The position numbers and the translations under genes were made by a program. Shown one piece after another: positions 1,978-47,912 of a stretch of 64,000 nucleotides of DNA; the first letter of the stretch is position 1, and every line of letters starts with the position of its first letter. The stretch comes from Lota lota (lineage: Eukaryota; Chordata; Actinopteri; Gadiformes; Lotidae): NCBI GenBank assembly GCA_026745465.1, contig JACYXH010000091.1, forward strand, positions 1,588,501-1,652,500, given 5' to 3'. Below the pieces are notes generated by a model. It worked only from the letters and a program-made list of their open reading frames with translations. It made no database searches and was not told the origin of the DNA.

Positions 1978-2279
1978 AAGCTGAGCAGAACAGCAGTCCA
2001 AGTCGCACTGGCCTTGGTTCTGATCAGGAGGACAGTAGAACCACCACCTTGGGTGAGAAAATGCACACACCCACACGCAGGCACGCACCCACACGCAGGC
2101 ACGCACCCACACACAGGCACGCACCCACCCACACCCGCACGCACGCATGCACACACACACACGCAGGCACGCACCCACACACAGGCACGCACCCACCCAC
2201 ACCCGCGCGCACGCATGCACACACACACACGCAGGCACGCACCCACACACAGGCACGCACCCACCCGCACGCACACACA

Positions 2280-2315
<36 letters not shown>

Positions 2316-2325
2316 TGCACGCACG

Positions 2326-2407
<82 letters not shown>

Positions 2408-3765
2408 TTTCTTTTAAGAACCCCCTCCCCTGTAAGCCGCTGCAGTAAGAATACACGTAGTAGTATTCTGACAGTGAGTCATTTACATTTAGTCATAATT
2501 TAGTCATTAAGTCATAATTTAGCAGACGCTGTTATCCAAAGTGAGACTGAGAACTATCAAAGCATGCAATCAGAATTGTAGTAGCTACAAAAACAAACAT
2601 TATTATGCTGCACAACCTAGTTTAAATTAACCAGAAAATATCTGGTTAGTATTTTCTTTATAGTGGTAGTGTGAACAGTTACAATAGCTATGTATCACAC
2701 GTCCTAGTGCTTTCTAGATTCCACAACCATTTTCACATTTCCAACAAGTTCCAACACAACAATGGAGTCATGTACAAGTCATGTTTTGTGTTGTGTTCAT
2801 ATAGAGGGTCCAGAGTTCCAGGACAGCTTTGTCACCTCAGGAGTTTTCAGTGTCACTGAGCTGGTCCAGGTCTCTAGAAGTAAGTCCCCCTGACCTCATG
2901 TGACTCTTTTAGGAGTCACATGACTCCTAAAAGTCATGTGTCACTTTCTATCGTGTCACTTTACTCTAACAACTTTTCTCTCTTATATACTCTTTTAACT
3001 CTTACCACTCTATTCTTTACACCAATTTATTTATTTTCTAAAGGAGCTGTAGGTAAGATTTAAGAGCTATTATATGAGTGTAAGTTGTTATAAATGGCAA
3101 ATGCTCTGTGAGAATGTCTATTTAGAGTTGACTGCACCTGCCTCTGTATGAGACAATTTAGATTTTAGATCGCTCCCGGCTCATTTCTGACCAGTCAGGG
3201 CATCTCTTCCCTGATTGTAAGTTGTTAGAAATGGCAAATGCTCTGTGAGAATGTCTATTTAGAGTTGACTGCACCTGCCTCTGTATGAGACAATTTAGAT
3301 TTTAGATCGCTCCCGGCTCATTTCTGACCAGTCAGGGCATCTCTTCCCTGATTTATTAGGGGAATCCACCTTGCCTGTCATCACAGATGGGTGGATGCAA
3401 CACGTAGGGAGAGAGGGAGGAGAGAGGGAGGGGAGGTTTTTTGGGTTGTTCATTTTTCAAAATCGGTCTCTTTTCTGCTCTTTTCGGCTCACTCTCTTTA
3501 CAACTCTCAAATCTTACCTTCAGCAGCTTTAAGCCTTACATCCACATTTCACCACAGATACATACATCACGTGGCTCGTTTGATTTGACTGTCCTTATGT
3601 GTGATGTTGTGTGTGTTGTTGTTGTGTTCTAGCTCCAGTTGTAACAGGAGCAGGGCCCAGTTTCTCTCTGGGAGAGCTACAGGGCCATTTGGCCTACGAC
3701 CTCAACCAGTCAGTCAACCAGCCGGTCAGCCTGAGGCGATCGTTGGCCAGCACGTCATCAAGCGG

Positions 3766-3864
<99 letters not shown>

Positions 3865-4918
3865 CATTCTGTAGGTAAACCTTTAACATTTATTTGAGTG
3901 TTTTCTTTTTATGGTTGTATTGATATTATTTATTCCATCAAAGACAGTGGAACTGCATCTTGCTTCGGTAGTAAACAGGATATTAGAGGGAAATAAGACT
4001 ACCCAATCACACAGAGCGTGTTTTAACAGCTGAGGGTGGCTGTTTTGCCTTTGTAATCAATGGGAAACAAGCGATTCTTCCATTGCTATTGCGTTTCTGA
4101 CCGCCTCGCTTTTTTCTGCTGTGATCACCTTGCGTCCAAAAAAATGTGACTCTAGAAAATAGAGCCCAGTGTCATTGTAGGTTTAGATTTAGACATTCCA
4201 TGGTTGCTTTGCAACAGTAAAAACGTGCAACGCTTCAACGAAAAGCCAGTGCAGTGCACCTCACGGTTCACAGCCTGCAAAGGTTTGCGGTTTGATCGGC
4301 AACTAATGCTGTGCCTTGATACGTAATTTGAATGGTGTAAGCCGGAGGACTTACCGTAGTTATAAGTAAAGCAAATTATTGTATTTTCTTTTGTAGGTGT
4401 ATAATAAGAGTTTGAAACAGACCGTGGAGAGAAGAAGCATCTTAGCTCCTCTCCTAGCCTGGTTCCCAGATCTCTGGCAGCACTTTGAGAGAATTATTAT
4501 TAAGTGATTCATGGTGTCTGGCACTCTACTTCAAGAGGATAATGCTGAAACACAGAAATTAAATGCAGATATTGTAAAGTAAAACTAAACTAAAACGAAA
4601 ATAAACAAATTATGTCACGTTGCATAAGACCATCTAAATCCAGTTTTAAATTATTTTATTAAAAACAAATCATCCTGATCCTCTTCCCCTTGCAGTAGCA
4701 AGCGCCACAAGTCAGGCTCCATGGAGGAGGAGGCAGACAGCCCAGGGGGGGAGTACTACCCTTCCCCCTCCTCCCCCGCCAGCAACTCGAGGAACTGGGC
4801 CGATGACATGGAGGGAGGTGAGAGATGCACTCTGCAGCGCTGATGCTAATGCTAATGCTGGAATAAACATCTGGTGTTGGTCACAATAGCACCACTTACA
4901 CACACCTTACTCACCCAA

Positions 4919-5466: not shown

Positions 5467-5541
<75 letters not shown>

Positions 5542-8500
5542 CCCAGGTCTTTCCCCTCCAGTGAAGAAGGCGGAGATGGACAGTCCGTCTCCTCAGGAGG
5601 ACTCACCCAGGATGGGTCCCTTCACCCAGCACCATCGACCTGTCATAGCCGTGCACAGTGGTGAGCGTGACGCTCGCGCACACACAAACACACACAGGCA
5701 CGCACACAAGGCACAGGCAGACACACATGTGAACACACACACAAACACACAGGCACACACAGAGATACACACACTCACACACACACAGGCGCACGAACAC
5801 ACTCACACACATACACACACACACACGCACACCCCTAAAAATACTCCCAAAACAACATTAAAGAAGCACTTTGCTCATTTGAGAACTTAGAGTCACTATG
5901 TTAATTGCTATTATATTGTAATCATGTAAGACCAGCTTCAGTGTAACTGTCTGCATGTGTATGTGTGTTTCTTTGTCTATCTTTCCCCCTGGGACCTGGT
6001 AAGGTTTGTCTCGGAGTCCCCATCCCTCGTCGTCTCTTCATTTCCCCACATCTTCTTACTTCCCCCACGGAGCGATACGCTACCCCCCCCACCTCACCCA
6101 GGACCCGCTCAAAGACCTGGTCTCATTGGCCTGCGACCCTTCCAATCAAAACCCCGGCTCTGTGAGTACCACACATCACAAATGAATCCAAACATCTTGA
6201 TTTTCTAACTTGTTTATTTTTCTAGTTTAGCTTTATTCATATAATTGTGTGGATATATAATCTACTGCAGACGCCCTCAGACAGATGATATTGTTTGCTT
6301 TCCAAGAAACCAATGAATAATGCCTTTCTTGGGCATGTAATCACTCATTTTGTCTTTGTGTGTGTGTGTGTTTTCCCCGCTCTGTATGCAGTTGAATGGC
6401 AGCGGCCAGGTTAAAGTGCCCAGTCACTACATCTCCTCTCAGATGTTGGCTCCGCCCGGCCCCGCCCCTTCGTCTCTGGCCCCGCCCCCTTCCTCCCTGA
6501 CCAGGCTCACGTTGGCCATAGACTCCAAGGCCATCACCACCTCCTCTGATGGGGGGGCTAACTCCCCCACGTCACCCAGTAAGTGACATGCACACATTTT
6601 TATAGTTTGTAACAAGAGAGTAGATTTCTGCTCTTGTTAGGCAAGAGAAATCTACTCTTGCCTAACAAGAGCGTGAGCTGGAATAGCTTCAAAGCTGCTT
6701 CTCTTCATTCCCAAATACACATAAAAAGTGTACTCCCAAAAAATCTCTTGCAGCCTAATCAAAGTGTTTTATAGCTAAATTGTACAATACTTCCCTAACA
6801 TTGACATTTAAAAGACGATGTGTATTTTCCTTCATTCATTTTCAGGTAAACATTTAATTTCAAACACCTTTTTATAATAACTTATAGGTGTATGTGCTAA
6901 CACTGATATATGTTGAGTGGCAGTCTTGCATTATTGGGAAACAGGAAACCAATGAGGGAACAAATAATTAAGTAGATCATTAAATGAAAACCCACCTTTT
7001 CCGTTGTGCTTTTCATCTACACACTACACGTGTGTGTATATATATGTGTGTGTGAGCATATATATATGTATATGTGTATCTACACATATGTAAATAATTT
7101 CTTATGTATTTAATTTATCCTCTTAGTATTCTATGTAAAGCGTCTTTGAGATACCTAATGAAACCACTCCATAAATCCAATTTAGTATGATTTCATGTTC
7201 AGGTTCATGTCAATATTACAGGTTCATGTCAATATTAATGATCATTATTCCCACCATATAATAGATCCAACACCAGAAAGAATTAAAAGCTATTGATCAC
7301 AGAGGAATTTATTCTCAGCGTCCGTTTCAAACACTAGTACATTTCAGTTAGAGTCCATTTCAAACAGAAAATGTTGCATATTGAACCTTGGAGGGCATAT
7401 CTTCTCATCGTACTTAATTTAGAATACAAAAGCGGGTATCACGATAACTCAGTATAATAAATAATAATACTTATAAAATAATATTGTAGTATTTCATGAC
7501 GATACAATACTAGTCAAAGACGATAAACAATTAATGATTGAATTATTGCCCAGGCCTAAGGTACACAAAATCATAGTTGAATATTGTCCCATTCTGTCTA
7601 TTCCCACCCCCACCCCTCTCAAAGCTTACTCCGCCCCTGGGACTCCCCCTACCAACCGCTCCTCCTTCGTGGGGGTCACCCCCCGAGACCCGGGGGGACT
7701 CTACCAAGCCCAGGTTAGTGGACCATACCAAGTCCAGGTTAGTGGACTGTACCAAGCCCAGGTTAGTGAACTGTACCAAGCCCAGGTTAGTTTACTCTAC
7801 CAAGTCCAGGTTAGTGGGCCATACCAAGTCCAGGTTAGTGGACTGTACCAAGCCAAGGTTAGTTTACTCTACCAAGTCCAGGTTAGTGGGCCATACCAAG
7901 TCCAGGCTAGTGGACTGTACCAAGCCCAGGTTAGTTTACTCTACCAAGTCCAGGTTAGTGGGCCATACCAAGTCCAGGTTAGTGGACCGTGCCAAGCCCA
8001 GTTTAGTGGACTGAACCAAGCCCAGGTTAGTGGGCCGTGCCAAGCCCAGTTTAGTGGACTGTACCAAGCCCAGTTTAGTGGACTATACCAAGCCCAGTTT
8101 AGTGGACTGTACCAAGCCCAGTTTAGTGGACTGTACCAAGTCCAGGTTAGTGGACCATACCAAGCCCAGGTTAATGGCCCGTACCAAGCCCAGGTTAATG
8201 GCCCGTACCAAGCCTAGGTTAGTGGACTGTACCAAGCCCAGGTTAGTGGACCATACCAAGCCCAGGTTAATGGCCCGTACCAAGCCCAGGTTAATGGCCC
8301 GTACCAAGCCTAGGTTAGTGGACTGTACCAAGCCCAGGTTAGTGGACCATACCAAGCCCAGGTTAGTGGTGTTCAGTGGACTCTACCAAGCCCAGGTTAC
8401 AGGATACAACAACTATGTCAAGTAAAAATGTACGAATAATGTAATGTAAAATATAGCATTTAAAATGTTTAATCTATGAAGTTGCTCCTACTAAGTGTGA

Positions 8501-9163
8501 GATTCCATTTAGTGGGAGTCTCAGTCATAGCCATATGAACTATAATACTCTATTCTGACTTATATTCAAAGGCTGAGTTATAGGATAAAATCAACGTGCT
8601 AGGCACACAGACCGACAAGCTGACAAACAGACACACACAATAGTTTTGCACACCATGAATGAAATGCCTCATTACCATTTTTAAAAGGCAATGTGAAAGC
8701 AATAGGATAGGGAATATAGCAATGTCAATTGTTATTTATATGCCCCATCAACCAATTGAGCTTAATTTCTCTCTGTTGACCTTTATGCTTTGTTACTTTA
8801 AATTGACTTATGGTTGAGACAATTTGAACTAATAATTTCAGTCACAATTGAATCATTGAAACGTTTGCATGTTGCAACTTTTAGAGGCCACTGCAGCTTT
8901 AACAAAAGGGAAGTATTCAATATTTAGCGACTTGCTTTCACATACACACATGCACAAAAGCGGACACACACACACACACACTGCATTAGTATATAGGTAG
9001 ATAGGTACCCCGACTCAGACTGCAGTAGATTCTGGTTAGTGGCTCTGGACCACTGCTGCATTGCAGTGCTTCTGCCCCATAAAACAGCCCGGCAAATACT
9101 GCTGAGCAAGGAAGACCCTGTGTGTGAGTGTGTGTGTGTATGTGTGTGAGCGTGTGTGTGCGT

Positions 9164-9194
<31 letters not shown>

Positions 9195-11121
9195 CCCGCG
9201 TGTGTGTGTGTATATGTGTGTGTGTGTGTATGTGTACCCACACGTGTTTGTGTGTGTGTGTGTGTGTATGTGTTGAAGCTGAATGTAAGGTGAATGTTAT
9301 CAGTGGTCTTTAGTAGTTGGCATGCTGCTTAATGAGAGAACGCATTGGCCAGAGTTGGTATGGTATGATGGTTTTAATAGTAAGATTAAACCGTGTATTA
9401 GCATTGAATTGATTCTTCATACTTCTAATTTCTATCATCTAAGTTCCATATAAAAGAGTAACACTAATGTGCTTATGCTTTTAAAGTCGGATTAGTAATT
9501 ATCAACTTAATAATGTTTGCAAGACAACTAATTAGGGCAAGTTAATGAATTGTTTTATCATCAGCTGCTCATATATAGTGGTATCATTTGTCATTTAATT
9601 ATAATACATACTAATACTATATGTAACATTATTCATTATATCACTACTGTGAACTGGTGCATACTGTCATTTGTAAGTGACCTCCATGTCAATCACCTCA
9701 CCATTCACTCACTGTCGTTTGAATCTGCATCAAAACAAGTACAAAGGTATTCTCTTCATTTTCCACTTTCTTGTTCACTTCCTGTAATTTCTTTAAAATA
9801 TCTGCACAGTGTTCTTGGCTTCCTCTCCTCTTCATTTTTCTTTCTCGTCCATTTGAATTCCAGAAAAACATTATTTTTTTGTACATAAATGTACCTCAGC
9901 TGCCACTATGTGATTGGATCTCTGTCTTGGCTTTCTCAGCAAACCAAATGATCCTCCTTTATATAGAGCAGCTTTTCTATAGGCTTCTTCCTTCTCCTTT
10001 TCAAGCTTTGTCGTATCCTTTCTTCCTCTTATTTCTACTCACTTCATCTTTTTCAGCGCTTCTTCTTTTTATTTTTACGGTTTGAGATAGATAGCTGGAT
10101 AGATACATGAATGATACATCCATGCCACATGGATCTATAGTTATTTCTGTGCATTCTCAATCAATTCTTCAGTTATCAGTCAGTATATGTTTTTTTTCAG
10201 TCAAGAATGGTAAGTGGAGATGTCACTCCCTACTGGTTCAATATGGAAATAGGAAATTCTGATAAATCCACAATGAAAATGATTAGCAGTTGTTCAAATT
10301 CATTTGTATACTAAACTGGATATCATCATTAACATGTAAAAAAGAAATGTAGTGGAAACATAAGGTTGTCATCTTGTTGTTTTTTGTGGAGCTAACTAGT
10401 TATGTGAATACATTACATTCATGTCTTGGAATTCCTGAGATTTGTCTTTGATTTAAGTAAAACGATGTGTTAGTACAAAGTGCTATACAACACTGTTTGA
10501 CAGTAATTCACATTCACTGTTAATGATATGGAAATAAATGCAGAACTAATGTACAGGTCATGTCAGGTGAAAAAGGCCTGACCAGAAGCATATATTTATT
10601 GATAGAAATATGCATCCGATAGCAATTTACATCAAAATGATGTAAATTCAATATTGTAAGCAGGTTTTATATTGGGAAGACACAACAAAACGATTAAACT
10701 ATTAAAAGTGAGATGGCTTTGTTGGCTGAACTAGACTTCTGTGTGACTGTACTCCAAAGGAGAGAAGAGGGTTGAGCTGGACTTGTAGCTGTGCTGTGCT
10801 TGACAGAAGAGGCCTCAGTTAGTCTTCTGGTAGTGCTTAGGTTGAGCGCAGGAATGTGCTGGAAAAAATAACAAATACCTCACATTCCTTAAAGTGAAGA
10901 CATAAGAAATACTCAAATTACTGTTTTCTTGGAGCACAATAAAGGGAATCTGAAAAGGAAAAGGTCACATTTATCAAAGAAAAGGTACATTTATCAAATG
11001 TGGGTTGGAGCATTCCCTGTTTCTTCAGTCTGTATAACTTGTGGTGCCACTTGTTTTCTTTCATGCTATTGACATTTTTGTATTCGGTCCTTTGTTACAG
11101 TCATGGTACCTGGGCAACTGA
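1978..11121 (+). CDS. nfic: Nuclear factor I/C, C-terminal half (partial, nine exons)
   Basis: NFI-C is a dimeric nuclear transcription factor that binds TTGGC(N5)GCCAA. Only the region after the DNA-binding domain is present. Coding exons: 1978-2052, 2805-2879, 3633-3765, 4696-4817, 5547-5660, 6004-6161, 6392-6578, 7625-7713, 11101-11121; all phases match, giving 323 complete residues after a split first codon. NFI-C rather than A, B or X is indicated by [80 protein letters not shown] and NRSSFVG. The RNA polymerase II CTD-like SPTSPTYS motif straddles 6578/7625. The C terminus is YQAQ-SWYLGN-stop; the family usually ends SWYLG. Compared with human NFIC as I recall it, about five residues after KKAEMD are missing. 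The exon 7625-7713 donor lies inside a minisatellite, so isoforms of different length are possible. Confidence 0.93.
2061..2402. repeat. Compound (CA)n / (GCAC)n array with internal higher-order copies
   Basis: The array begins 9 nt after the donor of nfic exon 1978-2052. The first part repeats a block of the type GCAGGCACGCACCCACACAC several times, with about 70-bp copies near 2100-2260. It then becomes (GCAC)n and finally a pure (CA)n run to 2402. Open frames on both strands here (His/Thr or Val/Cys repeats) are artefacts. Confidence 0.95.
2897..2940. repeat. Inverted repeat just after an nfic donor
   Basis: A near-palindrome with a perfect 13-bp core: CTTTTAGGAGTCA at 2906-2918 and its complement at 2921-2933, separated by 2 nt. 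The pairing extends imperfectly through CATGTG ends. It starts 17 nt after the donor at 2880. Confidence 0.85.
3080..3353. repeat. 137-bp tandem duplication in nfic intron
   Basis: Two adjacent, nearly identical copies (3080-3216 and 3217-3353) run from GTAAGTTGTTA to CTTCCCTGATT. The only difference noticed is T to G in TTGTTATAAATGG versus TTGTTAGAAATGG. This suggests a recent local duplication. Confidence 0.95.
3768..3858. repeat. (CA)n microsatellite fused to a splice donor
   Basis: About 45 uninterrupted CA units starting at position +3 of the intron after exon 3633-3765. The donor reads GCGG|GTACACAC, so the repeat forms part of the 5' splice site. Confidence 0.95.
4920..4985. repeat. 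(CA)n microsatellite
   Basis: About 33 uninterrupted CA units, roughly 100 nt after the donor of nfic exon 4696-4817. Confidence 0.95.
5469..5539. repeat. (TG)n microsatellite abutting an nfic acceptor
   Basis: About 35 TG units end at 5539, followed only by ATCCCAG before exon 5547. The repeat takes the place normally held by the polypyrimidine tract. Confidence 0.95.
5677..5833. repeat. Imperfect CA-rich array
   Basis: Interrupted (CA)n with AGGC, AAAC and GAAC interruptions, starting about 17 nt after the donor of nfic exon 5547-5660. Confidence 0.85.
6630..6672. repeat. Perfect inverted repeat, 18-bp arms
   Basis: The left arm is 6630-6647 (starts GCTCTTGTTAGG) and the right arm is 6655-6672, with a 7-nt loop. 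A second, overlapping pairing between GAGTAGATTT (6617-6626) and AAATCTACTC just right of the centre would form an alternative hairpin. It lies about 50 nt after the donor of nfic exon 6392-6578. Confidence 0.9.
7690..8395 (+). repeat. nfic: 24-bp minisatellite made from the nfic exon end and donor, 29 units
   Basis: The unit is GTTAGTGGACTGTACCAAGCCCAG with variants. The first unit is the true end of coding exon 7625-7713 (Gly-Leu-Tyr-Gln-Ala-Gln). Unit ends fall at 7713 + 24k up to 8361, and a last irregular unit ends at 8395. The unit is a multiple of 3, so units 1-21 extend the nfic frame as VSG(L/P)YQ(A/V)Q. Unit 22 ends TAG (8215-8217) and is the first in-frame stop. Twelve unit junctions before the stop read CAG|GTTAGT and one reads AAG|GTTAGT; six read CAG|TTTAGT or CAG|GCTAGT and lose a GT donor. 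Higher-order periods of 72 bp (near 7785-7975) and 96 bp (stops at 8217 and 8313) are visible. Confidence 0.95.
9120..9274. repeat. Imperfect (TG)n array
   Basis: TG dinucleotides interrupted by TATG, AGCG and CCCGCG, within the last nfic intron (7714-11100). Confidence 0.9.
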
Positions 11122-43045: not shown

Positions 43046-43490
43046 TTGTTCTATCTCTCCCACCCACACATACACACACAAACCTCGGGTTGGAACCGGA
43101 AACCCCAAGATTACAAATCCAGCACTCTAACCATGGACATTCATCAGATTTCCCTTTCCTGCTAGAAAATATGTAATGGTTGCTTATCTGTGTGGTACGA
43201 CACGGTTGTTCCTAATATGATTTTGTGACTGGGCCTTCAAGGGTATCTGAAGCGTTCACATGTGTTGTTGTAGGCTTGGTCACTAGAGCACCACCTTAAT
43301 GCCACACATTCTTAGTGATCCCTTATTTGGAAAACAGTCTAGCCTGGTGTGCAGGTCTTGAAGAACCAGTCTGACAATTGTGTCAATGTTATATTTGACA
43401 ACAAAACATTTAAATCAATGAAATACCAGACCCATCATGCCTCCTTATACCCATCTTGCCTTTGTATAAAGAAAAGTATGCATTCACTTA

Positions 43491-44016
43491 TCAACTGGAG
43501 TAGTATGCTATTTCAACTAGAGCAGTATGCTATAGCAATTGCAGTATGCCAAATCAACTGGAGTATTATGCTATCACAACTGAAGTAGTATGCTACAGCA
43601 ACTGGGGTAGTATCCTATATCAACTCAATTATTCTATATCAACTGGAGTATCCTATATCAATTGGAATATGCTATAGCATCTGGAGTGGTATGTTATATA
43701 AACTGGAGTATGCTATAGCATTTGGAGTAGTATGTCAAATCAAATGGAATATGCTATATCAACTGGAGTATGCTATAGCATCTGGAGTGGTATGTCATAT
43801 CAACTGGAGTATGCTATAGCATCTGGAGTGGTATGTCATATCAACTGGAATATGCTATAGCATCTGGATTTGTATGCTATATCCACTGGAGTAGTATGTT
43901 ATATCAACTGGAGTACACTACATCAACTGGTGTGTATGTTATAGCATCTGGAGTAGTATACTATACCAACTGGAGCATGCTTTATCAACTGTAGTATGCT
44001 ACATCCACCGGAGTGA
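43491..44016. repeat. Degenerate minisatellite, about 41-bp unit
   Basis: Tandem units of the type TATCAACTGGAGTATGCTATAGCATCTGGAGTGG, each made of two related 20-21 bp halves (ATCAACTGGAGTATGCTAT and AGCATCTGGAGTGGTATGTC). About 13 units are present, with the outer ones more diverged. Confidence 0.9.
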
Positions 44017-47354: not shown

Positions 47355-47912
47355 GCTACCCTGCCACCAGTACCCCTCAACCAAAAGCTACCTGGCTATC
47401 CCAGCCCCTGGTACCCCTCAACCAAAAACTACCTGGATATCCCAGCCACCTGTTCCACTCAACCAAAAGCTACCTGGCTATCCCAGCCCCTGGTACCCCT
47501 CAACCAAAAACTACCTGGCTATCCCAGCCCCCGGTACCCCTCAACCAAAAACTACCTGGCTATCCCAGCCCCTGGTACCCCTCAACCAAAAACTACCTGG
47601 ATATCCCAGCCACCGGTACCCCTCAACCAAAAACTACCTGGCTGTCCCAGCCACCAGTACCCCTCAACCAAAAGCTACCTGGCTATCCCAGCCCCCGGTA
47701 CCCCTCAACCAAAAACTACCTGGATATCCCAGCCACCGGTACCCCTCAACCAAAAACTACCTGGCTGTCCCAGCCACCGGTACCCCTCAACCAAAAACTA
47801 CCTGGATATCCCAGCCACCAGTTCCCCTCAACCAAAAACTACCTGGATATCCCAGCCACCAGTTCCCTTCAACCCAAAAACTACCTGGCTATCCCAGCCA
47901 CAAATACCCCCC
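47355..47912 (+). repeat. 41-bp minisatellite, about 13 units, open in three frames
   Basis: The unit reads TACCCCTCAACCAAAAACTACCTGGCTATCCCAGCC and so on (41 bp), with small variants (GGATAT for GGCTAT, CACCGG for CCCTGG). Because 41 is not a multiple of 3, each unit shifts the frame. All three forward frames of the unit lack stops, which creates a 206-codon spurious open frame (47346-47966). Confidence 0.95.

Follow-up and report, generated by a model that had tools for sequence, protein, structure and literature searches.

What happens to a gene when the end of one of its coding exons is copied many times in tandem together with its 5' splice site? The 64-kb window (the whole stretch of DNA that was analysed) carries the 3' part of nfic on its plus strand, where an earlier note had described a 24-bp unit that lies across an exon/intron boundary and is amplified to 29 copies. 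Such an array could be a ladder of alternative donors that gives the protein a repeat tail of variable length, or it could be mostly inert, with the first donor used.

The nfic gene and its repeated exon end

A splice model joins nine nfic coding exons with AG...GT borders in a single open frame of 323 residues (Table 1). The CTF_NFI region of the product (Pfam PF00859, E 5.7e-132) covers residues 30-317, and the best database protein, P0001, shares 321 of 323 residues with the model, including the same C-terminal ending. By these sequence comparisons, identity with the NFI/CTF transcription factor NFIC, including the NFIC C terminus, is secure. The NFIC of Gadus morhua (P0003) differs from the model at 4 of 298 aligned positions and that of the gadiform Muraenolepis orangiensis (P0006) at 10 of 303; the four percomorph entries tested (P0002, P0004, P0005 and P0010) have 29-34 differences, and the salmonid, Aplochiton and Osmerus entries 53-60. 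By these distances the DNA probably comes from a codfish or a near relative of codfishes. P0001 itself is labelled Lepidogalaxias salamandroides, a label that is taxonomically odd for a sequence near those of codfishes, and the record is possibly mislabelled or contaminated.

Tandem Repeats Finder (TRF) places the repeat at 7696-8369, with a period of 24, 28.1 copies, 86% matches and 0% indels. Its first unit, GGACTCTACCAAGCCCAG followed by GTTAGT, consists of the end of exon 7625-7713 (7696-7713) and the donor of that exon, and the array thus begins at the exon's own end. Followed unit by unit, the 29 copies described earlier are 28 in register and a displaced 29th. The many unit types and the two higher-order repeats, one of 72 bp in three copies and one of 96 bp in two, indicate that the array grew by block duplication within itself. 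When the 575-Mb assembly of the same genome was searched for the array and the best candidates were scored, four matches were obtained, all at this one locus (window 7600-8369).

Table 1. Positions of the nfic features, of other repeats in the window and of the homology-confirmed donor arrays elsewhere in the genome. A hyphen within a donor marks the exon/intron boundary.
Feature	Position	Strand	Basis or remark
Seven upstream nfic coding exons	1978-2052, 2805-2879, 3633-3765, 4696-4817, 5547-5660, 6004-6161, 6392-6578	+	Splice model, Pfam CTF_NFI, homology
Penultimate nfic coding exon; last 18 nt are unit 1 of the array	7625..7713	+	Splice model
Authentic nfic donor GTTAGT, nonamer CAG-GTTAGT	7714..7719	+	U1 duplex -7.7 kcal/mol
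Minisatellite of 24-bp units: 28 in register, 18 distinct variants, every unit a copy of exon end and donor	7696..8367	+	TRF, unit-by-unit register
72-bp higher-order repeat: units 5-7, 8-10, 11-13; types EFG, EHC, EFI	7792..8007	+
Dead-donor stretch: units 13 and 15-18 read CAG-TTTAGT; unit 14 retains GT	7984..8127	+
96-bp higher-order repeat: units 20-23, then 24-27, both of types OPQC	8152..8343	+
First in-frame stop, TAG, in unit 22; another in-frame TAG in unit 26	8215..8217	+
29th copy, 10 nt out of register, then GTTACA; 18 nt identical to the exonic copy	8378..8395	+
Last nfic coding exon, SWYLGN and stop, TCATGGTACCTGGGCAACTGA; acceptor ...tttgttacag	11101..11121	+	Splice model
CA-rich 68-bp array	2053-2401		Begins 12 nt past nfic donor 2052
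(AC)45	3766-3858		Abutted by nfic donor GTACAC
(TG)36	5467-5546		Precedes acceptor of nfic exon 5547
CA-rich repeat	5661-5832		After nfic donor 5660
Minisatellite, about 22/41/101 bp	43489-44014
Minisatellite, 41 bp x 13.3	47355-47901		91% matches
CHD4/5-like array	L060 836-1042 (C35:467k)	minus-strand positions	PDB 6guu, E 6e-22, aligned up to ...ELQ at the exon end; next exon at L060:1286, minus-strand count
K319L-like array	L061 499-873 (C161:178k)	minus-strand positions	Pfam PF22352, 7e-7; next exon at L061:1250, minus-strand count
In-frame ladder in K319L-like array	L061 537-879	minus	39 bp per unit, VSPQSKVEVVEMQ, open to about the array end
Muniscin-like (muHD) array	L062 229-2402 (C91:1.187-1.189M)	minus-strand positions	Pfam PF10291, 1.1e-6
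SMPD3-like array	L063 2155-2924 (C177:1.560M)	+	tblastn 1.7e-38; next homology at L063 3365, in-phase acceptor at 3346

Among the in-register units, 22 of 28 retain GT and 18 of 28 the full GTTAGT; the six losses are a GC in unit 9 and a TT in units 13 and 15-18. The earlier count is correct: 13 (C/A)AG-GTTAGT junctions lie ahead of the first in-frame stop (units 1-8, 10, 11, 12, 14 and 19). Of 16 donors, 13 are in phase before the stop; units 20 and 21 are in frame as well, with GTTAAT as donor. The proposed arithmetic also holds for these same donors, each step adding 8 residues and every in-phase junction splicing to SWYLGN at 11101. The 13 donors share one nonamer, with an A at -3 in unit 7 only, and their calculated U1 duplex energy is -7.7 kcal/mol (-6.2 kcal/mol for unit 7), within the span of -5.0 to -9.7 kcal/mol covered by the remaining seven nfic donors of the window. 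Because the later intact donors match the first in this energy, the nonamer carries no mark of the first. The array was also considered as a series of recursive (ratchet) splice sites; AG-GT is present, but the preceding GGACTGTACCAAGCC is by inspection not pyrimidine-rich. A special RNA structure was set aside, as the fold of exon plus array is unremarkable (z = -1.36).

Variation among the units and the predicted tail

A minimum spanning tree of the unit variants requires 23 changes, of which 7 are synonymous, 14 nonsynonymous and 2 create stops. The expected synonymous share is 22-29%, so no purifying selection on the repeat protein sequence, as a coding repeat domain would show, was detected in the nfic units. 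Six of these changes fall on the donor positions, which make up 9 of the 24 in a unit (p = 0.18), and two of the 23 fall on the GT pair. The units look like neutral sequence, with donors that decay like other positions, and neither the variant tree nor the donor positions of the nfic array give a sign that the copies are constrained as protein or as splice sites.

Comparison with other NFI proteins used 120 listed entries of 609 NFI hits. The canonical ending YQxQ-SWYLG, or one close to it, was found in 84 of the 120, including the 99%-identical protein. Another 14 read through the donor as V... (13 found by script and P0056 by eye), meaning that read-through isoforms are annotated at the penultimate nfic exon; in five percomorph entries among the 120 the read-through is VS(K/M), which points to just one GTNAGN donor at that site. 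YQ(A/V)Q-like motifs number two at most in each of the 120. A search for a protein containing the ladder, with scoring of the 8000 candidates that had the most words in common with it, returned none at E <= 0.001, and a further search of the same extent gave one unrelated-looking match at E 0.3. That match, P0121, an entry of 122 residues from an ENA contig with ladder-like 8-residue SLLYQVQQ repeats, was set aside as probably due to chance. These searches are weak evidence of absence since the protein database may lack this species, and isoforms may be hidden in its 90% clusters. The coelacanth NFIC model P0118 has an in-frame extension ending in SWYLG, which, as a gene model, shows at least that extensions at this terminal junction are annotated elsewhere.

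The tail that the ladder would encode is rich in Q (24%), V (14%), S (11%), Y (11%) and G (10%). Single-sequence AlphaFold2 predicted regular strands for exon plus ladder, with a mean pLDDT of 68.6 (mostly 70-85) and a pTM of 0.66; the other four models scored 47.8-55.2. Single-sequence structure models tend to favour repeats, and the prediction says only that the ladder peptide, if made, would be regular.

Donor arrays elsewhere in the genome and in other species

Three CAGGTNAGT words spaced 3-33 nt apart were found at 1575 places in the same genome, compared with 250 for the reversed word, although a long array contributes many such places, which therefore do not count as independent. With a purine at +3 the triple word occurs at 679 places (control, 155) and with a pyrimidine at 848 (control, 93); single words in this genome have no clear excess (9888 versus 9187, and 11087 versus 13270). 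Seeding by donor words is not supported as the whole cause of the excess, since arrays with the less donor-like pyrimidine at +3 are equally common. The first places listed resolve into 26 distinct arrays (10 purine, 16 pyrimidine), comprising 25 that were retrieved and the nfic array. Extrapolation from the density of the listing suggests roughly 70 purine and 135 pyrimidine arrays of repeated CAGGTNAGT genome-wide.

Five of the 26 listed arrays start at a homology-confirmed coding exon end: those in nfic and in the CHD4/5-like, K319L-like, SMPD3-like and muniscin-like genes. In all five the array is followed by the next coding exon, in phase with the first donor. For the muniscin-like gene this is the last exon, GKYLADN and stop at ~L062:3460 (minus-strand count), located by its motif; the SMPD3-like gene was recognised by tblastn, and its upstream frame had no PDB match. 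Even with cases judged by eye (L035, L038, L044, L049 and L052, not counted as confirmed), only about 10 of the 26 listed arrays lie on exon ends. In L042, L048, L055 and L057 the start of the array or its vicinity has doubtful exon-like sequence, the flank of L039 is masked, and inspection gave no sign of an exon in L036, L037, L040, L043, L045, L051, L053, L054, L056, L058 and L059. Open frames upstream of 20 arrays are not longer than those at the opposite end (medians 123 versus 96 nt, p = 0.53); short exons are unrecognisable by this measure, and we therefore relied on homology. Of 10 upstream frames picked by eye and scanned against Pfam, two had matches above the cut-off, one had a weak match below it (Chromo, E 0.052) and seven had no family.

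The unit lengths are 24 bp in nfic, 41 in the CHD-like, 39 in the K319L-like, 40 in the SMPD3-like and 31 in the muniscin-like array. Multiples of 3 thus account for two of the five confirmed arrays, or 5 of 10 when those judged by eye are included (p = 0.21), and selection for in-frame units is not supported. Every intact (C/A)AG-GTNAGT donor ahead of the stop is in phase in nfic and in the K319L-like gene. Donors in phase before a stop number 8/8 in the K319L-like array, 6/18 in the SMPD3-like, 1/4 in the CHD-like and 1/64 in the muniscin-like array, where up to 63 donor copies follow the exon's own donor. Unit lengths that are not multiples of 3 and the presence of stops mean that only the first donor keeps the frame in the CHD-like and muniscin-like genes, so this donor must work if those genes make proteins. 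In four of the five confirmed arrays the amplified donor carries a pyrimidine at +3 (GTCAGT or GTTAGT). C or T at this position is uncommon among donors, and selection against multiplying strong donors could explain such a bias.

A splice-donor minisatellite was reportedly described in the human 6-16 gene (IFI6, or G1P3) by Turri, Cuin and Porter in 1995. Its unit is about 12 bp long and resembles the donor consensus, whereas the nfic unit has 24 bp, 18 nt of which are conserved coding exon. Tandem duplication of AGGT is a route to new introns, in which exon segments with AG-GT are duplicated; such a duplication creates an intron, whereas the nfic array multiplies an existing donor. In human 6-16/IFI6, two downstream repeat units act as donors and give rise to three mRNAs (PMC4526556). 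6-16/IFI6 is the closest precedent, an exon-end minisatellite with donor-supplying units as in nfic; its later donors are shown in use, those of nfic being putative donors. Unlike the human case, the array type recurs here at at least five genes of one genome. Cod and haddock, which probably belong to the same fish group, have an extreme density of tandem repeats, including in coding parts; the accessible text of that study counts units of 1-10 bp and does not mention exon-end donor arrays (PMC5894186). The sea bream GH and MSTN-2 genes, like nfic, carry intron repeats, in their case polymorphic minisatellites, with one consensus donor (gtaagt) in all MSTN-2 first-intron alleles and no multiplied donor described in the portion available (PMC3045353). 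In the literature searched, mostly without subscription papers and in part as partial texts, we found exon-end donor arrays nowhere described as a class that recurs within a genome.

A probable tolerated duplication and its alternatives

The nfic array belongs to a class that recurs in this tandem-repeat-rich genome, and the likely explanation is a tandem duplication across exon ends that is tolerated, with a working first copy and later copies that are mostly latent donors. We infer that the founding duplication spanned the nfic exon end and its 5' splice site and that 72- and 96-bp block duplications then enlarged the array within the intron. The first copy would still serve as exon end and donor, with splicing mainly from 7713 to 11101, and the copies behind it would drift as intron. 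The 12 later intact in-frame donors would be latent competitors, and any low-level use of them should be harmless because 24 is a multiple of 3; in nfic and the K319L-like gene, latent donors could leak in-frame longer tails. Tolerance would follow from an upstream copy that keeps exon and donor whole, so that such duplications may escape selection and can extend into the intron. Use of the first donor, by analogy with the CHD-like and muniscin-like genes, would be the simplest account for nfic, and since sister arrays have units that are not multiples of 3 and contain stops, the in-phase nfic length may be a one-in-three accident. Several points count against this explanation. Intact donors further along the array pair with U1 as strongly as the first. 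Competition between two equal donors often favours the intron-proximal one, contrary to a first-donor reading. Selection for a ladder would likewise place all intact pre-stop donors in phase, as in nfic and the K319L-like gene; the strand pattern predicted for the ladder is as regular as a translated repeat could have; and some listed NFI proteins read through the nfic donor.

The splice-choice ladder proposed in the earlier note would have several donors appreciably used, adding 8(k-1) residues of VSG(L/P)YQ(A/V)Q before SWYLGN. The length of an NFIC tail rich in Y, Q, S and G would then depend on the number of repeats and on the donor chosen. Its anatomy and arithmetic stand, and the 13 near-identical nonamers in phase without a stop, the composition and predicted strands of the tail, the coelacanth extension, the K319L-like array of the same design and human 6-16/IFI6 all argue for it. 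As the main function of the array, however, it is unlikely, given the neutral variation, the dead donors and stops, the out-of-frame sister arrays and the failure to find a ladder protein among the best word-sharing candidates. A ladder function is possible in view of the sequence but not favoured; the indirect evidence favours the other reading in the earlier note, a mostly inert array with its first donor used. We consider it distinctly unlikely that exon-end donor ladders are a genome-wide habit, with dozens to hundreds of 5' splice sites multiplied and the in-phase ones (nfic, K319L-like) spliced at several rungs; if this were so, alleles that differ in repeat number would encode proteins whose tails or inserts differ in length.

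Translation straight through the donor, in a composite terminal exon or a retained intron, would add 167 ladder residues up to the TAG at 8215. The frame is open that far and the read-through NFI entries give a parallel, but by their names these are probably mostly predicted gene models, the protein searches found no ladder-bearing protein and the units lack purifying selection, so we regard this as very unlikely. A platform for U1 binding would be under selection to strengthen a +3-pyrimidine donor or to shield the 3.4-kb intron from premature polyadenylation, its copies remaining unspliced. All 16 plus-strand matches to (C/A)AGGT(A/T/G)AGT in the 64-kb window fall within the array and none on the other strand, and the +3 pyrimidines of the confirmed arrays are in keeping with this idea; the donor positions, however, are no more conserved than the rest and six have lost GT, and the +3 sample is small, which makes such a platform highly improbable. 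An assembly artefact is scarcely credible: the array does exceed the length of short reads and is known from one assembly, but 18 unit types in a structured order, two different higher-order repeats, a single nfic locus and four similar arrays at other exon ends speak against it.

The choice of the spliceosome among identical neighbouring donors is usually studied with two engineered sites. In the natural layout described here, a single exon is followed by a series of near-identical donors, from 16 in nfic to 64 in the muniscin-like gene, and use of a wrong donor keeps the frame in nfic and the K319L-like gene and would shorten the protein in the CHD-like and muniscin-like genes. Donor arrays thus make splice-site competition testable in nature. 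That they recur at several genes suggests that minisatellites arise and persist at exon ends, a site that has been overlooked.
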